A DNA stretch of 33,566 nt from a virus, in the IMG/VR virus record IMGVR_UViG_3300047478_000081, positions 1-33,566 of that record. One strand, given 5' to 3'. Positions 4,698 to 31,109 of the stretch are shown piece by piece. Numbering within the stretch: position 1 is the first letter of the stretch; each line of letters begins with the position of its first letter. Position numbers and translations under genes: made by a program. The notes under the pieces are model-generated. The model had not been told where the DNA came from. It searched no databases and worked only from the letters and a program-made list of their open reading frames with translations.

Positions 4698-5023
4698 CAA
4701 CTGAAAACTGGATTGACCTACCAACCTTGCAAGATCTAGCCAAGGCTCAGGCTGATGGGTGGGAGATTCAAATACAAAGCGATGCTGGCAATGACAAATA
4801 TTGCCCATTCAAAGAGTGGGATGGTCGGCACTGGCACACAGGATACTTGTTCCGTGGTCGCCCTCGCCAGCCGAAGATGAAAGAGGTCAAGATTCTTTCG
4901 TGGATTGACCCGCAAGGAGAATTCAGGAGAGGATTGGAAGGAAGCAATATCTGCAAAAGCGCAGCCAGTGGATTCTGGATTCGCCAGCCCCATCTGGACA
5001 TGATTGCGAGGGTGGCGGAATGA
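4694..5023 (+). CDS. Hypothetical protein, Trp/Arg-rich
   Basis: A 109-aa protein coupled to the previous gene by ATGA. It is rich in Trp, Lys and Arg, with KEWDGRHWHTGYLFRGRPR followed by VKILSWIDPQGEF. The 'RGRPRxPK' linker followed by a 'LxWIDPxGE' strand recurs in small phage early proteins and may be a small beta domain, but I know no function. It shares the higher G+C of its two upstream neighbours and is the last gene of that cassette. Confidence 0.7.
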   Translation: MTTENWIDLPTLQDLAKAQADGWEIQIQSDAGNDKYCPFKEWDGRHWHTGYLFRGRPRQPKMKEVKILSWIDPQGEFRRGLEGSNICKSAASGFWIRQPHLDMIARVAE

Positions 5024-5220
5024 CAGGACGCTGCGTAGCTTGCGACGCTATCTTAACAGAACAAGAAATGAAATATAAAGATAGCAACGAACAATATATC
5101 ACAGTTTGTTTTGCTTGTCAAACAGAAACAAAACTAGCTGAGGATGGCTATTACGACAATGCTTTTAATAGACCCTTTGTTATATCTGACTTTGGTATTA
5201 AAGAAACTTATAAGGAGTAA
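5020..5220 (+). CDS. Small zinc-ribbon-like protein
   Basis: A 66-aa protein coupled by ATGA. It has two CxxC pairs, CVAC (residues 5-8) and CFAC (about residues 31-34), 22 residues apart, the usual layout of a small zinc ribbon. The rest is acidic. The base composition drops to the A+T-rich state of the replication genes within this gene. It lies directly before the primase, and its 3' end carries the AAGGAG that serves the primase start. It might bind nucleic acid or a protein, but that is only an inference from the ribbon. Confidence 0.68.
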   Translation: MTGRCVACDAILTEQEMKYKDSNEQYITVCFACQTETKLAEDGYYDNAFNRPFVISDFGIKETYKE

Positions 5221-5230
5221 CTATGTAATG
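5212..5230 (+). promoter_or_regulatory. Primase ribosome binding site with an ATG-TAA start-stop element
   Basis: AAGGAG (5212-5217) is followed 5 bases later by ATG (5223), whose next codon is TAA. The primase ATG (5228) overlaps this as ATGTAATG. The SD spacing is ideal for the dead-end ATG and longer (10 bases) for the primase ATG. Ribosomes may start, stop at once and restart, which would lower or regulate primase output. The arrangement is directly visible; a regulatory role is an inference. Confidence 0.4.
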
Positions 5231-5971
5231 AGTCACTTCATTAAAAATACAGCCTGTCCAAAATGTCAAGAAGAAGGAAGGGATCGCAGTGGAAACAACT
5301 TGGGTAATTTTGCTGACGGTAGTGTTTATTGCTGGTCTTGTGGTTATTGGCAGCCTGGCAACGGCATTGCAAAAATTAAACAGGAGACACAAGAGGGAGA
5401 TTCGGTATCTACAAGAACAGTTGCGCTTCCAAGAGACAGCAGCTTCGAGCTACCTGGACTCGCTCGGAGTTACTTACAAAACTTTGCACTAACACAAGAT
5501 GATATTATTGTCAATAGGATTATGTGGTCAGAGGAATGGCAAAGAGTTATCTTCCCATACTTCGCACATGACCAGCTAGTTGGTTGGCAAGGAAGGTATC
5601 TAGGCAAGGAGAAGAAAGCTAAATGGTATAGTCAAGGAGTATTGCGTGATCTCATGCACGTTTGCGGCTACGCGCCCCCTGCTGGCAATCCTAGACCAAT
5701 TGTATTGACAGAGGATGTGATTAGTGCTATTAGGGTCGGTCACGTAACACAAGCCTCACCACTCTTTGGTAGCCATATTTCCACACAAGCAGCAATGCGT
5801 TACCACAAATTCTTTGACAACGTGATCATTTGGCTTGACAAAGATAAACAGATTGATTCAATCAAATTCACAGCACGTCTAAACAATCTAGGTATCACCA
5901 CAAGGAACATTATTACTGACAAAGACCCTAAAGAGTATACTGACACTGAGATTGTTGACATCTTAAAATAA
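5228..5971 (+). CDS. DNA primase (T7 gp4 N-terminal-like: zinc domain plus TOPRIM)
   Basis: A 247-aa protein. A zinc-binding domain comes first, with C10/C13 and C35/C38 (CPKC ... YCWSC), as in T7 gp4, where it reads the priming site. A TOPRIM domain follows with E162 (VLTEDV) and the D204-x-D206 pair (WLDKDK), the metal ligands for ribonucleotide polymerisation. The length matches only the primase half of T7 gp4; the helicase half is a separate gene at 6506. The two are separated by an HNH endonuclease gene. It makes RNA primers at the phage fork. ATG 5228 is used because upstream in-frame starts lie inside the preceding gene and lack an SD site. Confidence 0.88.
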   Translation: MSHFIKNTACPKCQEEGRDRSGNNLGNFADGSVYCWSCGYWQPGNGIAKIKQETQEGDSVSTRTVALPRDSSFELPGLARSYLQNFALTQDDIIVNRIMWSEEWQRVIFPYFAHDQLVGWQGRYLGKEKKAKWYSQGVLRDLMHVCGYAPPAGNPRPIVLTEDVISAIRVGHVTQASPLFGSHISTQAAMRYHKFFDNVIIWLDKDKQIDSIKFTARLNNLGITTRNIITDKDPKEYTDTEIVDILK

Positions 5972-6007: not shown

Positions 6008-6043
6008 ATGATCAATATAATTTATTCATTACTTAATTATTAG
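6008..6043 (+). pseudogene. Eleven-codon stub: displaced 5' end of the helicase gene
   Basis: ATG 6008 has AGGA five bases upstream and encodes MINIIYSLLNY before TAG. The helicase at 6506 begins MVNIIYSLLSR: seven of the first nine residues after Met are identical, plus one Ile/Val change, yet nearly every codon differs (for example Ser is TCA here and AGC there). The simplest reading is that this is the original helicase start with its ribosome binding site, cut off when the HNH gene inserted. The stub stop overlaps the AGGA used by the HNH gene, so its translation may feed the HNH start. Confidence 0.6.
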
Positions 6044-6051
6044 GATAACTT

Positions 6052-6504
6052 ATGACTATCTGGCAGGATAACAACAAAGAGCACTTAAAGGAGTATAGAA
6101 AACAATATTATATTCAAAATAAAGAAACCATACTTAAAAAAGCAAAAGAAAAGGGACTTACAAAATTAGCGAAACTAAATAAAGGTATAAAAGCTGAAAA
6201 GAATTTTGAACGTATTTTATTTTATTCTAGTATTCAACATGCTAGAAAACTTGGCATAGAACACACAATTACGCTATCGGATATTATAATACCAACACAT
6301 TGTTCATATCTAAATATTGAACTAACAAAAACAAGAAATAATGGAGTAGTTTGGTCTAATGCCTCTATAGATAGAATAGATTCTACAAAAGGCTATATCC
6401 CTGGAAACATTCAAATTATTTCAAGAAAAGCAAACATAATGAAACAAAATGCAACACAGCAAGAATTACTTATATTTGCTAAAAATATTCTTAACCTAGA
6501 ATAA
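6052..6504 (+). CDS. HNH-type homing endonuclease between primase and helicase
   Basis: A 150-aa basic protein. The N-terminus (KEYRKQYYIQNKETILKKA) is a Lys-rich helix typical of DNA-binding tails of such enzymes. The catalytic part has PTHCSYLNIEL and then ASIDRIDSTKGYIPGNIQI followed by SRKANIMK, characteristic of a phage HNH endonuclease subfamily. These enzymes cut DNA of phages lacking the gene and spread by repair. The A+T-rich composition and codon use differ from the flanks. AGGA at 6042-6045 gives a six-base spacing to ATG 6052. Its stop lies one base before the helicase ATG, and the helicase has no good SD of its own, so helicase synthesis may depend on translation of this gene. 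Confidence 0.85.
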   Translation: MTIWQDNNKEHLKEYRKQYYIQNKETILKKAKEKGLTKLAKLNKGIKAEKNFERILFYSSIQHARKLGIEHTITLSDIIIPTHCSYLNIELTKTRNNGVVWSNASIDRIDSTKGYIPGNIQIISRKANIMKQNATQQELLIFAKNILNLE

Positions 6505-6505
6505 A

Positions 6506-7720
6506 ATGGTTAACATCATATATAGCCTGTTATCTAGAGAAATATATAGTAAATATAAAGATAGTTTATATAATATAATTAAAAAAGATAATAAAGAACT
6601 ATATTTACTATATAAATATATTACTGAACTTCACGATAAGTATTCTCGTGATATTACCTTTGAGGAATTTAGTCTATACACACTCTCTCGTGTACCTGAA
6701 AAAGATCGGGAAGTCTTCTCTGACTTGTTGCACAAAATCCAACAAGACGGCCCATCAGATATTGTACAAGATATTTTTGTAGAAATGCATAATAAACACG
6801 TTGCCTACAATCTTGCACTAAAAGCTCTAGAAGCGTCTGAGGGCCGTTTTTCTTTTGAGGAGCTACGTGGGTATACCCAAGAGCATTTAAATGCAGCCAC
6901 GCCCCTCGTAGGGCCCTCTATGGAGCCTGTAACGCATGATCTAGATGCACTTTTGAACGGAACCATCAAAACACAGGGGTTACGATGGAGATTAACCGCA
7001 ATGAACCAGATGCTTGGTTCGCTTAGAAAGGGTAACTTTGGATTCATATTCGCAAGACCAGAAACAGGGAAAACAACCTTCCTTGCATCAGAAATCTCCC
7101 ACTTCGCTCAACAAACAAAACGACCAATACTATGGTTCAACAATGAAGAAGATGGTGCCGCTGTTGAACTCCGAGTTTACCAAGCTACTCTTGGATGTAC
7201 ACTTACAGAACTTAGAGCTTTTCCAGAAGAATCTAATGCAAAGTTTATTGAACTCGGCGGGACTAACATCAAACTATTTGATTCAGCATCCATCCACCGA
7301 CGACAAGTTGAGGAACTTTGTGCGATCTACGACCCTGCCCTTATTGTCTTTGATCAACTTGATAAAGTCAAAGGATTCGTTGGAGACCGGGAAGATCTCA
7401 GACTTGGAGGAATTTATGTATGGGCTAGGGAACTTGCAAAACAGTATTGCCCTGTTATTGCCGTATCTCAAGCAGATGTGTCTGGAGAAGGAAAAAAGTG
7501 GCTAAACATGGAGAATGTAGCTAATGCCAAGACTGCAAAGCAAGCGGAAGCTGACTGGATTCTAGGTATTGGTTGCACTTTTCAGGATTCTGAACAGTAT
7601 GATAGGTTCTTACACCTGTCAAAGAATAAACTAATTGGGGATACAGATACCATCCCAGAATTGCGACACGGAAAAATGACTGTACGAATTGTGCCTGAGT
7701 TGGCAAGATATGAGGATTAA
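6506..7720 (+). CDS. Replicative DNA helicase (DnaB/T7 gp4 C-terminal family)
   Basis: A 404-aa protein. The N-terminal ~150 residues are helical, matching the linker/N-terminal region of DnaB-type helicases. The RecA-fold core starts near 165. Walker A is ARPETGKT (183-190; Ala replaces the first Gly), the Walker B strand is LIVFDQLD, and a later QAD/KTAKQAEADWIL segment matches the conserved glutamine and arginine-finger region. It should form a hexamer at the phage fork, working with the separate primase and the split polymerase. The first ten codons duplicate the stub at 6008-6043. ATG 6506 follows the HNH stop by one base and lacks an SD site. The first ~40 codons are strongly A+T-rich, like the HNH gene, and composition returns to normal near 6650. 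Confidence 0.9.
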   Translation: MVNIIYSLLSREIYSKYKDSLYNIIKKDNKELYLLYKYITELHDKYSRDITFEEFSLYTLSRVPEKDREVFSDLLHKIQQDGPSDIVQDIFVEMHNKHVAYNLALKALEASEGRFSFEELRGYTQEHLNAATPLVGPSMEPVTHDLDALLNGTIKTQGLRWRLTAMNQMLGSLRKGNFGFIFARPETGKTTFLASEISHFAQQTKRPILWFNNEEDGAAVELRVYQATLGCTLTELRAFPEESNAKFIELGGTNIKLFDSASIHRRQVEELCAIYDPALIVFDQLDKVKGFVGDREDLRLGGIYVWARELAKQYCPVIAVSQADVSGEGKKWLNMENVANAKTAKQAEADWILGIGCTFQDSEQYDRFLHLSKNKLIGDTDTIPELRHGKMTVRIVPELARYED

Positions 7721-8035
7721 ATGAAACAAAACACACAAGGTAGGAAGGCAGCAGGTGATATTAGATATACACACATGCTGACTCTTGCAAAAGAATTACG
7801 AAACAGTCCCTTAAATAAAGGTCAAAAAGATTTAATTGCTGCTTTTCTTGCACGATACTTTAAAAAACGAGTACTTAACTTTGATCTAGATAATTTTATG
7901 GCCGTATGTTTGGGTCTTTCGGAGGGTAAATATGCTGCACTTGTACACGATTCCCTTATCAATGGATGTCTATGCCAAGAACGAGAACGATGCGATATTC
8001 CAGTTGCAGAAGTTCTTGAGAACAGCAAGGATTGA
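7721..8035 (+). CDS. Hypothetical protein between helicase and polymerase
   Basis: A 104-aa protein starting directly after the helicase TAA, with a GAGG about six bases upstream. It is basic and helical (TLAKELRNSPLNKGQKDLIA then FLARYFKKR), with three Cys near the C-terminus. It might be a small helical DNA- or protein-binding factor of the replisome, but I do not recognise it. Its stop overlaps the region upstream of the polymerase start, and the AAGGA for the polymerase lies inside its last codons. Confidence 0.68.
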   Translation: MKQNTQGRKAAGDIRYTHMLTLAKELRNSPLNKGQKDLIAAFLARYFKKRVLNFDLDNFMAVCLGLSEGKYAALVHDSLINGCLCQERERCDIPVAEVLENSKD

Positions 8036-8037
8036 AT

Positions 8038-9228
8038 ATGGACTTGATGAAGTCATCACTCGTCACGACGTTGACGAAGAACTACTCGAATCCCGTCGTA
8101 ATGGATGTCGAAACATCAATTTATTTGAAGGGACACCCGTTTAGTACACGCAATACTCTTGAGATGGCTGTTGTTACCACACTGGATAACAAAAGTCAAG
8201 TATTTTTACCACAAACATTTACACAATTAGCACGAACATTGGAGAAATCTGACCTATGGATTACATTTAATGGCAAATTTGACATACACTGGATTCGTCG
8301 GGAGTTCGGATTGGTTCCCAAGTCCGTGTGGGACTGCCAGCTTGGAGAATTTTTACTCAGTAACCAGACGTGGAGATATCCCTCGCTTGATGAGTCCTGT
8401 CATAAACGCGGTTTACCAAGAAAAATTGATATTGTCAAGCAAGAATACTGGGATAAAGGAATTGACACCAAGGATATACCGTTTCAGACCCTAAAAGAGT
8501 ATGTAATTCAAGATGGTGAAAGTACTTTAGCCTTATTCGCTGACCAAGTTAAGGACTTTGAAGGAAAACATGCCTCAAAATACAAGCTTTTTAGGGTACA
8601 GTGTAACGATTTGCTTGTGTTACAAGAGATGGAATACAACGGTATCTTGTACGATGTAGAGGGATCACTGGCGGAAGCTGATAAACTAACACAAGAAGTA
8701 GTAGCTATTGATAGCAAGATGACCCAAATAGGCAAGCTGTCTTTCCCATTTAACTTTGATTCTCCCCAACAAATATCAAAACTATTGTATGGTGGTATTG
8801 TTAAGGAGGAATTCTCCGCCCCCATCGGTGTATTTAAAACCGGTCTCCGCAAGGGTGAAGTAAAGATGAAGAAGTTTGAACGAGAGCACGTCTTAGAACG
8901 CCTTGTAGAGCCGCTGGCTGGCACGGAGATGGCCGCTGAAGGGATATGGTCCATCAATGAAGATACCCTCGGCAAACTCGCTGCACGTGGCCCTGCTAAG
9001 GCACTCATTAAACTATACCAAGAAAGGGTAAAGCTACAGAAACTAAACTCAACTTACCTAACCGGTCTACCAAAGAGAATTAAAGAGATGGATTGGGATG
9101 ATAACATTATTCACTCCAATCTAAACCAATGTGTTGTTGTATCTGGTCGCTTGGCTAGTAACAAACCAAACGTACAGAACCAACCAGCACAAGCTAAACA
9201 ATTCTGTATAAGCAGATTTAAAACCTAA
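8038..9228 (+). CDS. Family A DNA polymerase, N-terminal fragment (3'-5' exonuclease, thumb)
   Basis: A 396-aa protein. ATG 8038 is chosen over the TTG at 8032 because AAGGA lies six bases before it. The proofreading exonuclease is complete: D23/E25 (MDVETS), the Exo II strand FNGKFDIHW and Exo III YVIQDGESTLALF. The thumb follows, and the protein ends just after the conserved SGRLASNKPNVQNQP segment and QFCISRF, right before motif A. In intact family members such as T7 gp5 (about 700 aa) the chain continues; here it stops at TAA 9226-9228, and the palm/fingers are a separate gene. The two products presumably assemble into one enzyme. Confidence 0.9.
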   Translation: MDLMKSSLVTTLTKNYSNPVVMDVETSIYLKGHPFSTRNTLEMAVVTTLDNKSQVFLPQTFTQLARTLEKSDLWITFNGKFDIHWIRREFGLVPKSVWDCQLGEFLLSNQTWRYPSLDESCHKRGLPRKIDIVKQEYWDKGIDTKDIPFQTLKEYVIQDGESTLALFADQVKDFEGKHASKYKLFRVQCNDLLVLQEMEYNGILYDVEGSLAEADKLTQEVVAIDSKMTQIGKLSFPFNFDSPQQISKLLYGGIVKEEFSAPIGVFKTGLRKGEVKMKKFEREHVLERLVEPLAGTEMAAEGIWSINEDTLGKLAARGPAKALIKLYQERVKLQKLNSTYLTGLPKRIKEMDWDDNIIHSNLNQCVVVSGRLASNKPNVQNQPAQAKQFCISRFKT

Positions 9229-9274
9229 AAAACTGAAAAATATGCAAAAAAAATTCCGGCTTAAGGAGAGCTAA
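9229..9274 (+). other. 46-base spacer splitting the DNA polymerase gene
   Basis: An A-rich stretch without a reading frame of note, ending with AAGGAG (9264-9269) five bases before ATG 9275. The downstream part is in a different frame, and TAA directly precedes its ATG in that frame, so simple readthrough cannot join the halves. It may be all that is left of a lost mobile element or a result of gene fission. It is too short to be a self-splicing intron. Confidence 0.6.
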
Positions 9275-9991
9275 ATGATAGTGCAGGTAGATGCTAAGAG
9301 CCTGGAATGGTGTACATACTTATTCCTCTCACAAGATCCTGTAGGTGTTGAAGAATGGTATGGTGTAGTTAATGATCCAAGCAAGAATGATATTCATCGT
9401 GCTAATGAGACAGCCTTCAAGCTACCGTCACGACTAGTAGCTAAGGTGTTTCTCTTTCGTTGGATCTATCGCGGTTCTGCCTTTGCCTATAGCCGTGATC
9501 CAGATTTCATGGGTGTCTCACGCAAGGTTGACTTCTGGCAAGATGTTATTGATAGGTACTATAGTAAGTACAAAGGATTACATAAGACTCACTTGAATTA
9601 TATTGAAACTGTTAAGAAGACAGGTCAATTAGTTTCCCCACTCGGTAGGGTATATGACTTTGAACCACAAAAGAAAAGAGGTGAGCTAGTCTGGAATGAA
9701 TCAGACATTTGTAACTATATCAACCAAGGATTAGGTGCAGATGTTATGTCAGTTGCACGCATTATTACCAAACAAAAGTTTGATAAATATAAACTACGAT
9801 CTTTGCTTGTTAATACAGTACATGATTCTATAGTAGCGGATTGTCCTGAGAAGGAGGTAGCAAATGTAGAAGAGATTTTCCTTGATGTTTTTAAGGAATT
9901 ACCAAAGCGTGTGTCACAAGCATACGATATTAACTGGAACTTGCCCATGCTGGGAGAGGTTCTGGTAGGTCCAAACATGGACATTCACTAA
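9275..9991 (+). CDS. Family A DNA polymerase, C-terminal fragment (palm and fingers)
   Basis: A 238-aa protein with a strong AAGGAG ribosome binding site. It begins in the motif A strand: IVQVDAKSLEW, with D6 the first catalytic aspartate. Motif B (O-helix) is intact: R53, K57, F61, Y65 and G67 in SRLVAKVFLFRWIYRGSAF, matching the Arg-x3-Lys-x3-Phe-x3-Tyr pattern. F61 is the position at which Phe or Tyr sets dideoxynucleotide discrimination in this family; Phe is seen here. Motif C is VNTVHDSIV with H183/D184. All catalytic residues of the polymerase are therefore present across the two genes, and the split seems functional rather than decay. Neither part should be active alone: exonuclease upstream, both palm aspartates here. 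Confidence 0.9.
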   Translation: MIVQVDAKSLEWCTYLFLSQDPVGVEEWYGVVNDPSKNDIHRANETAFKLPSRLVAKVFLFRWIYRGSAFAYSRDPDFMGVSRKVDFWQDVIDRYYSKYKGLHKTHLNYIETVKKTGQLVSPLGRVYDFEPQKKRGELVWNESDICNYINQGLGADVMSVARIITKQKFDKYKLRSLLVNTVHDSIVADCPEKEVANVEEIFLDVFKELPKRVSQAYDINWNLPMLGEVLVGPNMDIH

Positions 9992-10013
9992 GCTCGATAT
10001 AAGGAGATTACTA

Positions 10014-10556
10014 ATGAGCGCAATTCAAATTAAAGTTATTTCTGTAGAAGTATCCACACAAAAAACCCAGAAGGGTAGCTATGATATTGCAGAGGTAACA
10101 TATAAGAACCTCACCTTCCAAGATAAGGTAGAAGCAAAGAAGGTTGTTTCATTCAACCATAAGGAAGTCTTTAATACATTGAAACATGCCGCGCAAGGGG
10201 CCGTATTCACCGTACAGCGCGTCAAGAATGATGCTGGATACTGGGATTGGGTTAGCCTCGGTGATGATGAACCAGCGGGTACAGCTACGAGTACAGCGAG
10301 TGGAGGTAAAACTATGGCATCACCTAAGTCTACATATGAAACTCCAGAGGAGCGTGCAAAAAAGCAAGTGTATATCGTGCGTCAGTCAGCAATCAACGCT
10401 GCTATCGCTACACTAAAGACAGATAAAAAGAATCCAACACCAGATGAAGTGCTAGAACTAGCTAGTCACTATGAAGGATACGTCTTTGGTATTGAACCCG
10501 CATCTGGTGTTAAGGCAGCCATGCCTGAACTACCTGATGACGACGTGCCTTACTAA
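10014..10556 (+). CDS. Single-stranded DNA-binding protein-like
   Basis: A 180-aa protein with AAGGAGA eight bases before its ATG. The N-terminal ~85 residues are beta-rich and fit an OB fold (VEVSTQKTQKGSYDIAEVTY and a later strand ending YWDWVSL). A Gly/Ala/Ser/Thr linker follows, then a helical region. The protein ends ELPDDDVPY, close to the acidic DDDIPF tip that cellular SSB proteins use to recruit partners. It lies between the polymerase and the 5' exonuclease, as expected for a fork protein. Assignment rests on context, predicted fold and tip; I see no strict family motif. Confidence 0.65.
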   Translation: MSAIQIKVISVEVSTQKTQKGSYDIAEVTYKNLTFQDKVEAKKVVSFNHKEVFNTLKHAAQGAVFTVQRVKNDAGYWDWVSLGDDEPAGTATSTASGGKTMASPKSTYETPEERAKKQVYIVRQSAINAAIATLKTDKKNPTPDEVLELASHYEGYVFGIEPASGVKAAMPELPDDDVPY

Positions 10557-30332: not shown

Positions 30333-30616
30333 AGTAAATCATCTCCTGTTACATATCCACTTACTGAATATCCCGAATCCCAGTATAGGATATAATCAAC
30401 AGTTGTAAAAACATATGTTGGGATTGGTCTTGTGAATGGTACTGAGATCTTGTCCTGTCTAGCCCTCACAAAGTCCTGTTCGTGTCGCGGTTCCCAGTCA
30501 TCCAGACAGACACGGAAACCATCCCAACGCTGTCTGGACTCTGAGGCTTTTATCTTCCTAGAACATACATCGCATGTCACATTGAATTCGCCGGAAACGT
30601 AATAATTCTTAGACAT
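30329..30616 (-). CDS. Small zinc-ribbon phage protein near fibre genes
   Basis: A 95-aa protein. N-terminal YYVSGEFNVTCDVCSRKIKA has CxxC, and VCLDDWEPRHEQDF continues with a Cys and a conserved Arg/His stretch; the series RQRWDGFRVC is typical of a small protein family found next to tail fibre genes in many phages. The C-terminal ~30 residues (Tyr-rich, VSGYVTGDDLL) look like an add-on. It probably binds zinc. Its first 14 residues are repeated at the start of the HNH protein just upstream. It overlaps the HNH 3' end by eight bases; the GAGGA RBS lies in the HNH gene. Confidence 0.7.
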   Translation of the reverse strand: MSKNYYVSGEFNVTCDVCSRKIKASESRQRWDGFRVCLDDWEPRHEQDFVRARQDKISVPFTRPIPTYVFTTVDYILYWDSGYSVSGYVTGDDLL

Positions 30617-31109
30617 GGTATATGTTCCTCTTGCTTAAATTATGTTGTGCCGGAAGATACTGAAGATTATTTTCAACATGCAATCCTGAGACTAGTTTAC
30701 CACGTAAAGGTATAACATGATCTACATGGAAACCTATAGGACAACCTAAATACAAAGCTTTTATTTTAGGAAGGTCAGACCAACTTGGAGTACGTTTTGC
30801 TTTTTCTGCTCTATATGTGGCAGCACGAAAAGCATCATAAGGTAGATTATTTCTTCTCCATGTTCTGGTGCTTTGTCTAGACAGCTCTCGATTATTTGCT
30901 TTGTTTCGCCAGTTTTCCGTGTATTCTTTCTGTTTTTCTGGTTTCATATGTTTCTTATTTGCTTCTAATAAACAGGGTTTACAACGAGAAGCAACACCAC
31001 ATTTACCATCCACCTGTTTATAGAAGTTGTCTAAAGACTTTTCTTCTTTACAAACAGAACAGCACTTGGTAATATTCCAATCACCAGATACATAATGATT
31101 TTTGCTCAT
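30609..31109 (-). CDS. HNH endonuclease with N-terminus copied from the downstream gene
   Basis: A 166-aa protein. Residues 1-14 (MSKNHYVSGDWNIT) match the start of the downstream zinc-ribbon protein (MSKNYYVSGEFNVT). Then come a CxxC zinc finger (CSVC ... CKPC), a Lys/Arg-rich linker and an HNH core: GFHVDHVIPLRGKLVSGLHV followed by NNLQYLPAQHNLSKRN, the canonical HVDHxxPL...NLxxLP...N pattern. This is a free-standing homing-type endonuclease. It is A+T-rich relative to its neighbours. ATGA couples it to the repeat-protein gene, with AAGGTGAT eight bases upstream. It uses the virion operon's transcript. Confidence 0.87.
   Translation of the reverse strand: MSKNHYVSGDWNITKCCSVCKEEKSLDNFYKQVDGKCGVASRCKPCLLEANKKHMKPEKQKEYTENWRNKANNRELSRQSTRTWRRNNLPYDAFRAATYRAEKAKRTPSWSDLPKIKALYLGCPIGFHVDHVIPLRGKLVSGLHVENNLQYLPAQHNLSKRNIYHV

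Follow-up and report, generated by a model that had tools for sequence, protein, structure and literature searches.

Several essential replication genes of T4-like phages have been split by endonucleases: nrdA, gene 39/60 and possibly gene 43 (PMC2988022). In the described cases (Aeh1 nrdA/mobE, T4 gene 39/mobA/gene 60 and Aeromonas phage 25 43A/43B), the break falls at a critical site, an HNH (or Seg) endonuclease lies at or near it, and the halves are expected to reassemble. Two of them provide working precedents for assembly: the split reductase of Aeh1 and the split family B polymerase of phage 25, whose gp43A and gp43B co-purify with polymerase activity (PMC2988022). A paper of 2023 on phage MEP401 described two DNA polymerase open reading frames (ORFs), found most related metagenomic genomes to be split as well, and suggested a possible intron with an unknown ORF (PMC10580990). 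Here we analysed IMG/VR virus record IMGVR_UViG_3300047478_000081 (G000 in our set) over its full 33,566 bases, hereafter the window, in which a family A DNA polymerase is spread over two genes. MEP401, MEP402 and their metagenomic relatives (Zobellviridae, PMC10580990) belong to the same clade and share the split point of the window; a small ORF separates the halves in MEP401/402, whereas the window has a 46-nt spacer without an ORF. The nearest fused relatives, Puniceispirillum phage HMO-2011 and Pelagibacter phage HTVC033P, resemble the window in domain order and in the neighbouring primase and helicase genes, but their polymerase is one uninterrupted gene. The split is kin of the endonuclease-split replication genes above; unlike the reductase, topoisomerase and family B polymerase cases of T4-like phages, it affects a family A enzyme, is fixed across a diverse clade, and has no endonuclease gene in the window polymerase. 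To the split already noted in OM43 phages in 2023, our analysis adds that the fission is clade-wide, with a freely changing insert; the candidate recoding sites in relatives are more surprising. Our reading, to which we give a probability of about 0.82, is that the two genes encode subunits of one family A polymerase that was divided by an HNH cassette, and that the endonuclease was lost and the split fixed.

The polymerase genes and their junction lie in the window as follows.

8038-9228, plus strand: N-half of the family A DNA polymerase, with 3'-5' exonuclease, thumb and N-terminal palm (PF01612, N-part of PF00476, AlphaFold)
9229-9274, plus strand: 46-nt spacer with Shine-Dalgarno sequence AAGGAG at 9263-9268 (sequence; no intron, no conserved element)
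9275-9991, plus strand: C-half, with the motif A strand, motif B fingers and motif C palm (C-part of PF00476, AlphaFold, Foldseek)
9290-9310, plus strand: motif A codons D-A-K-S-L-E-W, intact in the window, with the catalytic Asp at 9290-9292

This layout agrees with an earlier note on the sequence, which had described two ORFs split before motif A, a 46-nt spacer, a change of frame and a separate AAGGAG. The N-half, for which an alternative upstream TTG start is possible at 8032, ends in ...AKQFCISRFKT followed by a TAA stop. The C-half opens with ATG ATA GTG CAG GTA GAT GCT AAG AGC CTG GAA TGG, translated as MIVQVDAKSLEW, which is the strand bearing the motif A aspartate. No intein segments were found at the ends of the halves: the N-half stops two residues past the conserved SRF, the motif A strand of the C-half follows after a single residue, and neither end has extra sequence. 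Pfam matched the N-half to the PF01612 exonuclease (4e-8) and to positions 51-136 of PF00476 (2e-15), and the C-half to positions 200-359 of PF00476 (1e-16). Family A motifs A, B and C are all present, spread over the two proteins.

Both halves appear to be functional. Exonuclease residues D23, E25, Y155 and D159 (DxE, YxxxD) are invariant in 24-25 diverse homologues, as are polymerase residues R371 in the N-half and D6, R53, K57, H183 and D184 in the C-half, which bears out the earlier claim that the full set of catalytic residues is present. Pairwise ratios of non-synonymous to synonymous substitution (dN/dS) for the C-half of relatives were mostly 0.03-0.16 where dS could be estimated. AlphaFold modelled the halves with a predicted local distance difference test score (pLDDT) of 89.7 for the N-half and 93.3 for the C-half. 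The C-half model resembles the fingers and palm of Bst and Aquifex Pol I (Foldseek TMq 0.73-0.76), and the N-half model can be aligned with residues 313-646 of Bst Pol I (Z 17-18). The break therefore falls at about residues 646-649, just before Asp653, which we take to be the catalytic aspartate of Bst Pol I. Judged from the models, the chain break lies within the palm, in the loop that leads into the motif A strand, and each half should fold alone, with the partners meeting in the palm. Invariant catalytic residues on both sides, a variable spacer and a split in every relative uphold the proposal that both halves are real, conserved and bound to assemble; the two chains probably form one active polymerase.

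The break is shared far beyond the window. Searching IMG/VR with the C-half returned 20 loci, all with an identical break position, and profile searches with alignments of both halves raised this to more than 150 loci, or 104 split representatives once near-duplicates were collapsed at 95% nucleotide identity. In all 104 of these non-redundant relatives, about six residues separate the break from the motif A Asp that follows, and the profile positions of the N-half end and the C-half start are constant. In a polymerase tree with 17 fused HMO-2011-type loci as outgroup, the 104 representatives all group together apart from the fused polymerases (support 0.93), and both MEP401 (L023) and the window fall inside the split clade. 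Isolates with the split are MEP401/402 (OM43 phages) and Alcaligenes phage QDWS535. The C-half of the window is 41% identical to that of MEP401/402; at the DNA level, the window matched our phage collection over 69 nt only. The split is thus an old, shared character of the clade and neither an error nor a private event of the window phage. A recent, private origin is contradicted by the split in 104/104 representatives, and the comparison with intact polymerases recommended in the earlier note shows the ancestral state in the fused HMO-2011-type sister group.

An HNH gene is located in the polymerase split of 12 relatives. A member of this HNH family also occurs in the window, at the start of the helicase gene.

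6008-6043, plus strand: truncated original helicase start, MINIIYSLLNY and a stop, left flank of the HNH cassette
6052-6504, plus strand: HNH endonuclease (hmmsearch profile hnhA, E 2.6e-29; phrog_3322 endonuclease, E 7e-27)
6506-7720, plus strand: DnaB-like helicase whose restart, MVNIIYSLLSRE..., is synonymously recoded: 6/8 shared residues differ in codon from the stump

To judge by its sequence, this helicase cassette is like a natural recoded-rescue homing element, and it would represent the precise, non-recoding form of the HNH cassette. The earlier note had counted two HNH elements near the polymerase. This one is indeed near; the other, an endonuclease VII/HNH-like gene on the minus strand (30612-31109), lies far off in the structural region. 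At the polymerase split, the near-identical phages L153, without HNH, and L165, with HNH, represent the empty and the occupied site. In L165, the original C-half start is kept as a stump (ATGTTACTACAAGCAGA...), followed by the HNH gene, a Shine-Dalgarno sequence and a new start, where the first codons are repeated in partly recoded form (ATGTTACTCCAAGCGGATGCAAAACAACTT); the two sequences rejoin from GAGTGG onward. L062 and L168 compare in the same way. An HNH cassette of this kind, which cuts a gene short and brings a start of its own, would suffice to cause the N/C fission, and with HNH genes at this very junction in relatives and a fused sister group it is also the likely actual cause. The homing-endonuclease origin suggested in the earlier note gains in weight to that extent; its original event would belong to the ancestor.

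In the sequence of events that we propose, the ancestor of the clade would have had its polymerase in a single gene, as in HMO-2011-type relatives, and an HNH-type homing cassette would have inserted beside the conserved motif A codons. The insertion would have ended the upstream part with a stop, while the remainder would have received its own ribosome-binding site and start codon from the cassette. The endonuclease would later have been lost and the fission fixed. The N-half (exonuclease, thumb and part of the palm) and the C-half (motif A, fingers and motif C) would then associate non-covalently into a complete active site, with the C-half translated by coupling at ATGA/TAATG overlaps or, as in the window, from its own Shine-Dalgarno sequence. 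Several points weigh against this account. The relatives with overlapping genes, like the window polymerase, all lack an endonuclease, so the ancestral insertion is a deduction, as is two-chain assembly in this phage. The extant HNH insert sits slightly downstream of the split, within motif A of an already divided gene, and today's HNH genes could have arrived later, at a fission that had come about in another way. Our searches also kept the best 80 loci, and some stem lineages may have been missed.

The same points feed the alternative that survives best, namely that ordinary mutation or recombination, through a stop and an internal start, made the fission and HNH cassettes invaded later. Present-day HNH genes lie within motif A of a C-half that is already separate, and in the tree they turn up here and there among the terminal branches; a like doubt has been voiced about gene 43 in Aeromonas phage 25 (PMC2988022). 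However, no more than about 20 nt lie between the split and the point of HNH insertion, and HNH cassettes are demonstrably capable of cutting a gene short and furnishing a new start. We consider an origin by ordinary mutation unlikely, though it deserves to be taken seriously.

The region between the halves bears on whether the two chains could be joined. Among the 97 representatives with both halves in hand, the distance spans -17 to 3,598 nt: 24 have a gap of at most 2 nt, overlaps included, 5 one of 3-60 nt, 39 one of 61-350 nt and 29 one above 350 nt. All three frames of the C-half relative to the N-half are used (28/27/42). The closest relatives of the window have overlapping or abutting halves (gaps of -4 to +2 nt), with TAATG and ATGA among the overlap types of the clade. 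Most longer gaps are packed end to end with small genes of 56 unrelated families, and at the extreme, MW202796 has 3,598 nt and, by our own count, eight ORFs between its halves, one of them a cytosine methyltransferase. Small acidic proteins of one family (about 60-90 residues, EEAHxHH...EFSxLI..GxxxVL) are encoded between the halves in 31 representatives, about one third of the clade, and are possibly accessory subunits. The example in MEP401 is the following.

L023 (MEP401), 4766-4999: gene of the small acidic protein between the halves, found there in 30 further representatives as well

In the window, the 46-nt spacer carries an ordinary ribosome-binding site; its length is one among many and is not conserved among relatives. 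Spacer identity had been named as a test beforehand. As spacer length and content vary freely, the suggestion that the 46 nt are the scar of a lost third HNH element is not supported.

Because the gaps run from -17 to 3,598 nt in all frames and with intervening genes, splicing, inteins and translational joining are excluded as a general mechanism, and the two chains must therefore assemble. Frameshifting, readthrough or bypassing that fuses both ORFs into one protein could draw on the overlapping stop/start layouts and on the precedent of T4 gene 60, a divided phage gene that is read by bypassing (PMC3014915, PMC5009743). It is contradicted by the three frame relations, the range of distances, the intact genes between the halves, and the C-half itself, which starts with ATG in 72/85 loci checked, often after a Shine-Dalgarno sequence. 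We regard joining of this kind as very improbable. To a spliced intron, the idea of the MEP401/402 authors, in which a group I or II element interrupts the gene and splicing restores one polymerase, we give slightly less credence still. In phage polymerases, group I introns that carry an HNH gene are common; SPO1 gp31 has one, and in relative L083 an insert with HNH at motif B matches a group I intron (RF00028, E 3.9e-6, under the gathering score). Yet many relatives overlap (TAATG, ATGA) or leave a gap of 0-50 nt, which is insufficient room, and in one member the intervening stretch amounts to 3.6 kb and eight ORFs. Rfam found no intron at the split of L062 or of the window, where 46 nt cannot hold one and where no match reached E<=1 in 7700-10100. 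The SPO1 intron, which we tried as a guide to the split site, lies elsewhere, as its 5' exon ends in the GRLSSNEP codons well upstream. A sequencing or assembly error or a decaying pseudogene, conceivable for a single metagenomic record, has a negligible chance, since a second IMG/VR record (L001, 39,906 b) equals the window over 8,971 nt including the junction, every relative has the same break, MEP401/402 and QDWS535 among them, and the C-half of relatives is under strong purifying selection.

In relatives with an HNH gene at the split, motif A itself is often disrupted, a feature absent from the window polymerase. All 10 of the 10 loci with an HNH gene of type A/C directly before the C-half have an insertion or deletion (indel) in motif A, compared with 4/94 others (Fisher p = 3.8e-11, for loci chosen by C-half similarity and counted after the pattern had been noticed). 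The disruption is a 1-8 nt insertion at the Leu-Glu or Glu-Trp codons, or, in L164, a deletion; two further cases came from genome contigs (L305, with HNH, and L307).

L062, 6016-6042: CTG-TAA-CTG-GAG, in-frame stop with Leu codons on both sides
L076, 5920-5946: CTT-TAG-CTA-GAG, in-frame stop with Leu codons on both sides
L087, 2295-2321: CTT-TAG-CTC-GAA, in-frame stop with Leu codons on both sides
L161, 7031-7057, and L307, 4016-4042: CTT-TAG-CCC-GAR, stop between CTT and CCC
L073 (954), L165 (3649), L178 (2677) and L180, four samples: CTT-TCTT-GAG
L037 (330) and L127 (7886): CTT-T-GAG
L085 (5865): ATT-T-GAA
L022 (4994): TCT-T-GAA
L181 (2619): CTG-TA-GAG
L006 (428): CTT-ATAAACTC-GAG
L015 (4674) and L016: 4 nt insert
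L305 (3337): 5 nt insert
L164 (3713): deletion

Downstream of the indels, the C-half frame is open and conserved; purifying selection there is partly confounded, as the cassettes are recent arrivals (L165 vs L153, pS 0.05). No second intact C-half was found in the ten recoding candidates, which is suggestive only, as most records are fragments. CUU UGA is an RF2 shift site, and some of the out-of-frame indels, most of which adjoin an HNH gene, are RF2-like (CTT TGA) and candidates for a +1 shift. The in-frame stops of L062, L076, L087, L161 and L307 are candidate +6 ribosomal hops on the basis of their codons. Readthrough of these stops was set aside in favour of hopping because it would insert two residues within motif A. 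In synthetic constructs, a stop flanked by matched codons allows a stop-hop by which nine nucleotides yield one amino acid (reviewed in PMC5009743). This design is matched by L062, L076 and L087 but not by L161/L307 (CTT-TAG-CCC), which, with L015/L016, L305, L181 and L164, fit the hop model poorly.

The HNH/indel association suggests ribosomal hopping or frameshifting in the fashion of T4 gene 60. As in T4 gene 60/MobA (PMC3014915, PMC5009743), the gene is split, an HNH gene stands just upstream, and a non-coding insert with a stop after the take-off codon lies in the first codons of the downstream half. The T4 insert has 50 nt, whereas those of the relatives have 1-8 nt and fall on catalytic motif A in many independent phages. 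We see about an even chance that HNH elements invaded the motif A codons repeatedly, leaving a stump, a recoded start and a 1-8 nt indel or stop, and that the polymerase was kept by ribosomal recoding. A synonym-tolerant endonuclease at essential codons could likely be escaped only by an indel, because the motif A amino acids cannot change, and recoding would make that indel harmless. If so, nature would have repeated the T4 gene 60/MobA cassette many times over in miniature at these loci. The one-base indel of L022 (MW202697.1) also accounts for its deposited annotation (5055-5275), in which the C-half starts about 70 codons too late. A variable-gap pattern scan for motif A insertions gave nearly all chance hits among the matches listed, and the polymerases in it were known loci only; L175, considered as a further locus, is not a polymerase.

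The replicative polymerase of an abundant aquatic phage group can thus be permanently broken in the palm, yet stay under strong selection, and would provide a natural two-chain Pol I open to direct test. In the comparison, HNH cassettes are caught dividing genes and providing a recoded restart, which accounts for the way in which fissions of this type can arise. In HNH-bearing relatives, the disrupted codons of motif A offer natural candidates for ribosomal hops or shifts at an active site, and recoding as a protection from homing endonucleases, known from one T4 case, becomes testable on many independent examples.

Two further observations concern the surroundings. In five relatives (L083:2929-3512, L068, L084, L086 and L144), the C-half has a second interruption at motif B, where an HNH-containing insert separates ..KFR from LIYGG. 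At 386-2646 of the window, a glutamine amidotransferase gene (GATase, phrog_4736) is followed by a match to a ribosomal protein S6 glutaminyl transferase (phrog_2599), a pair of unusual metabolic genes adjoining the replication module.
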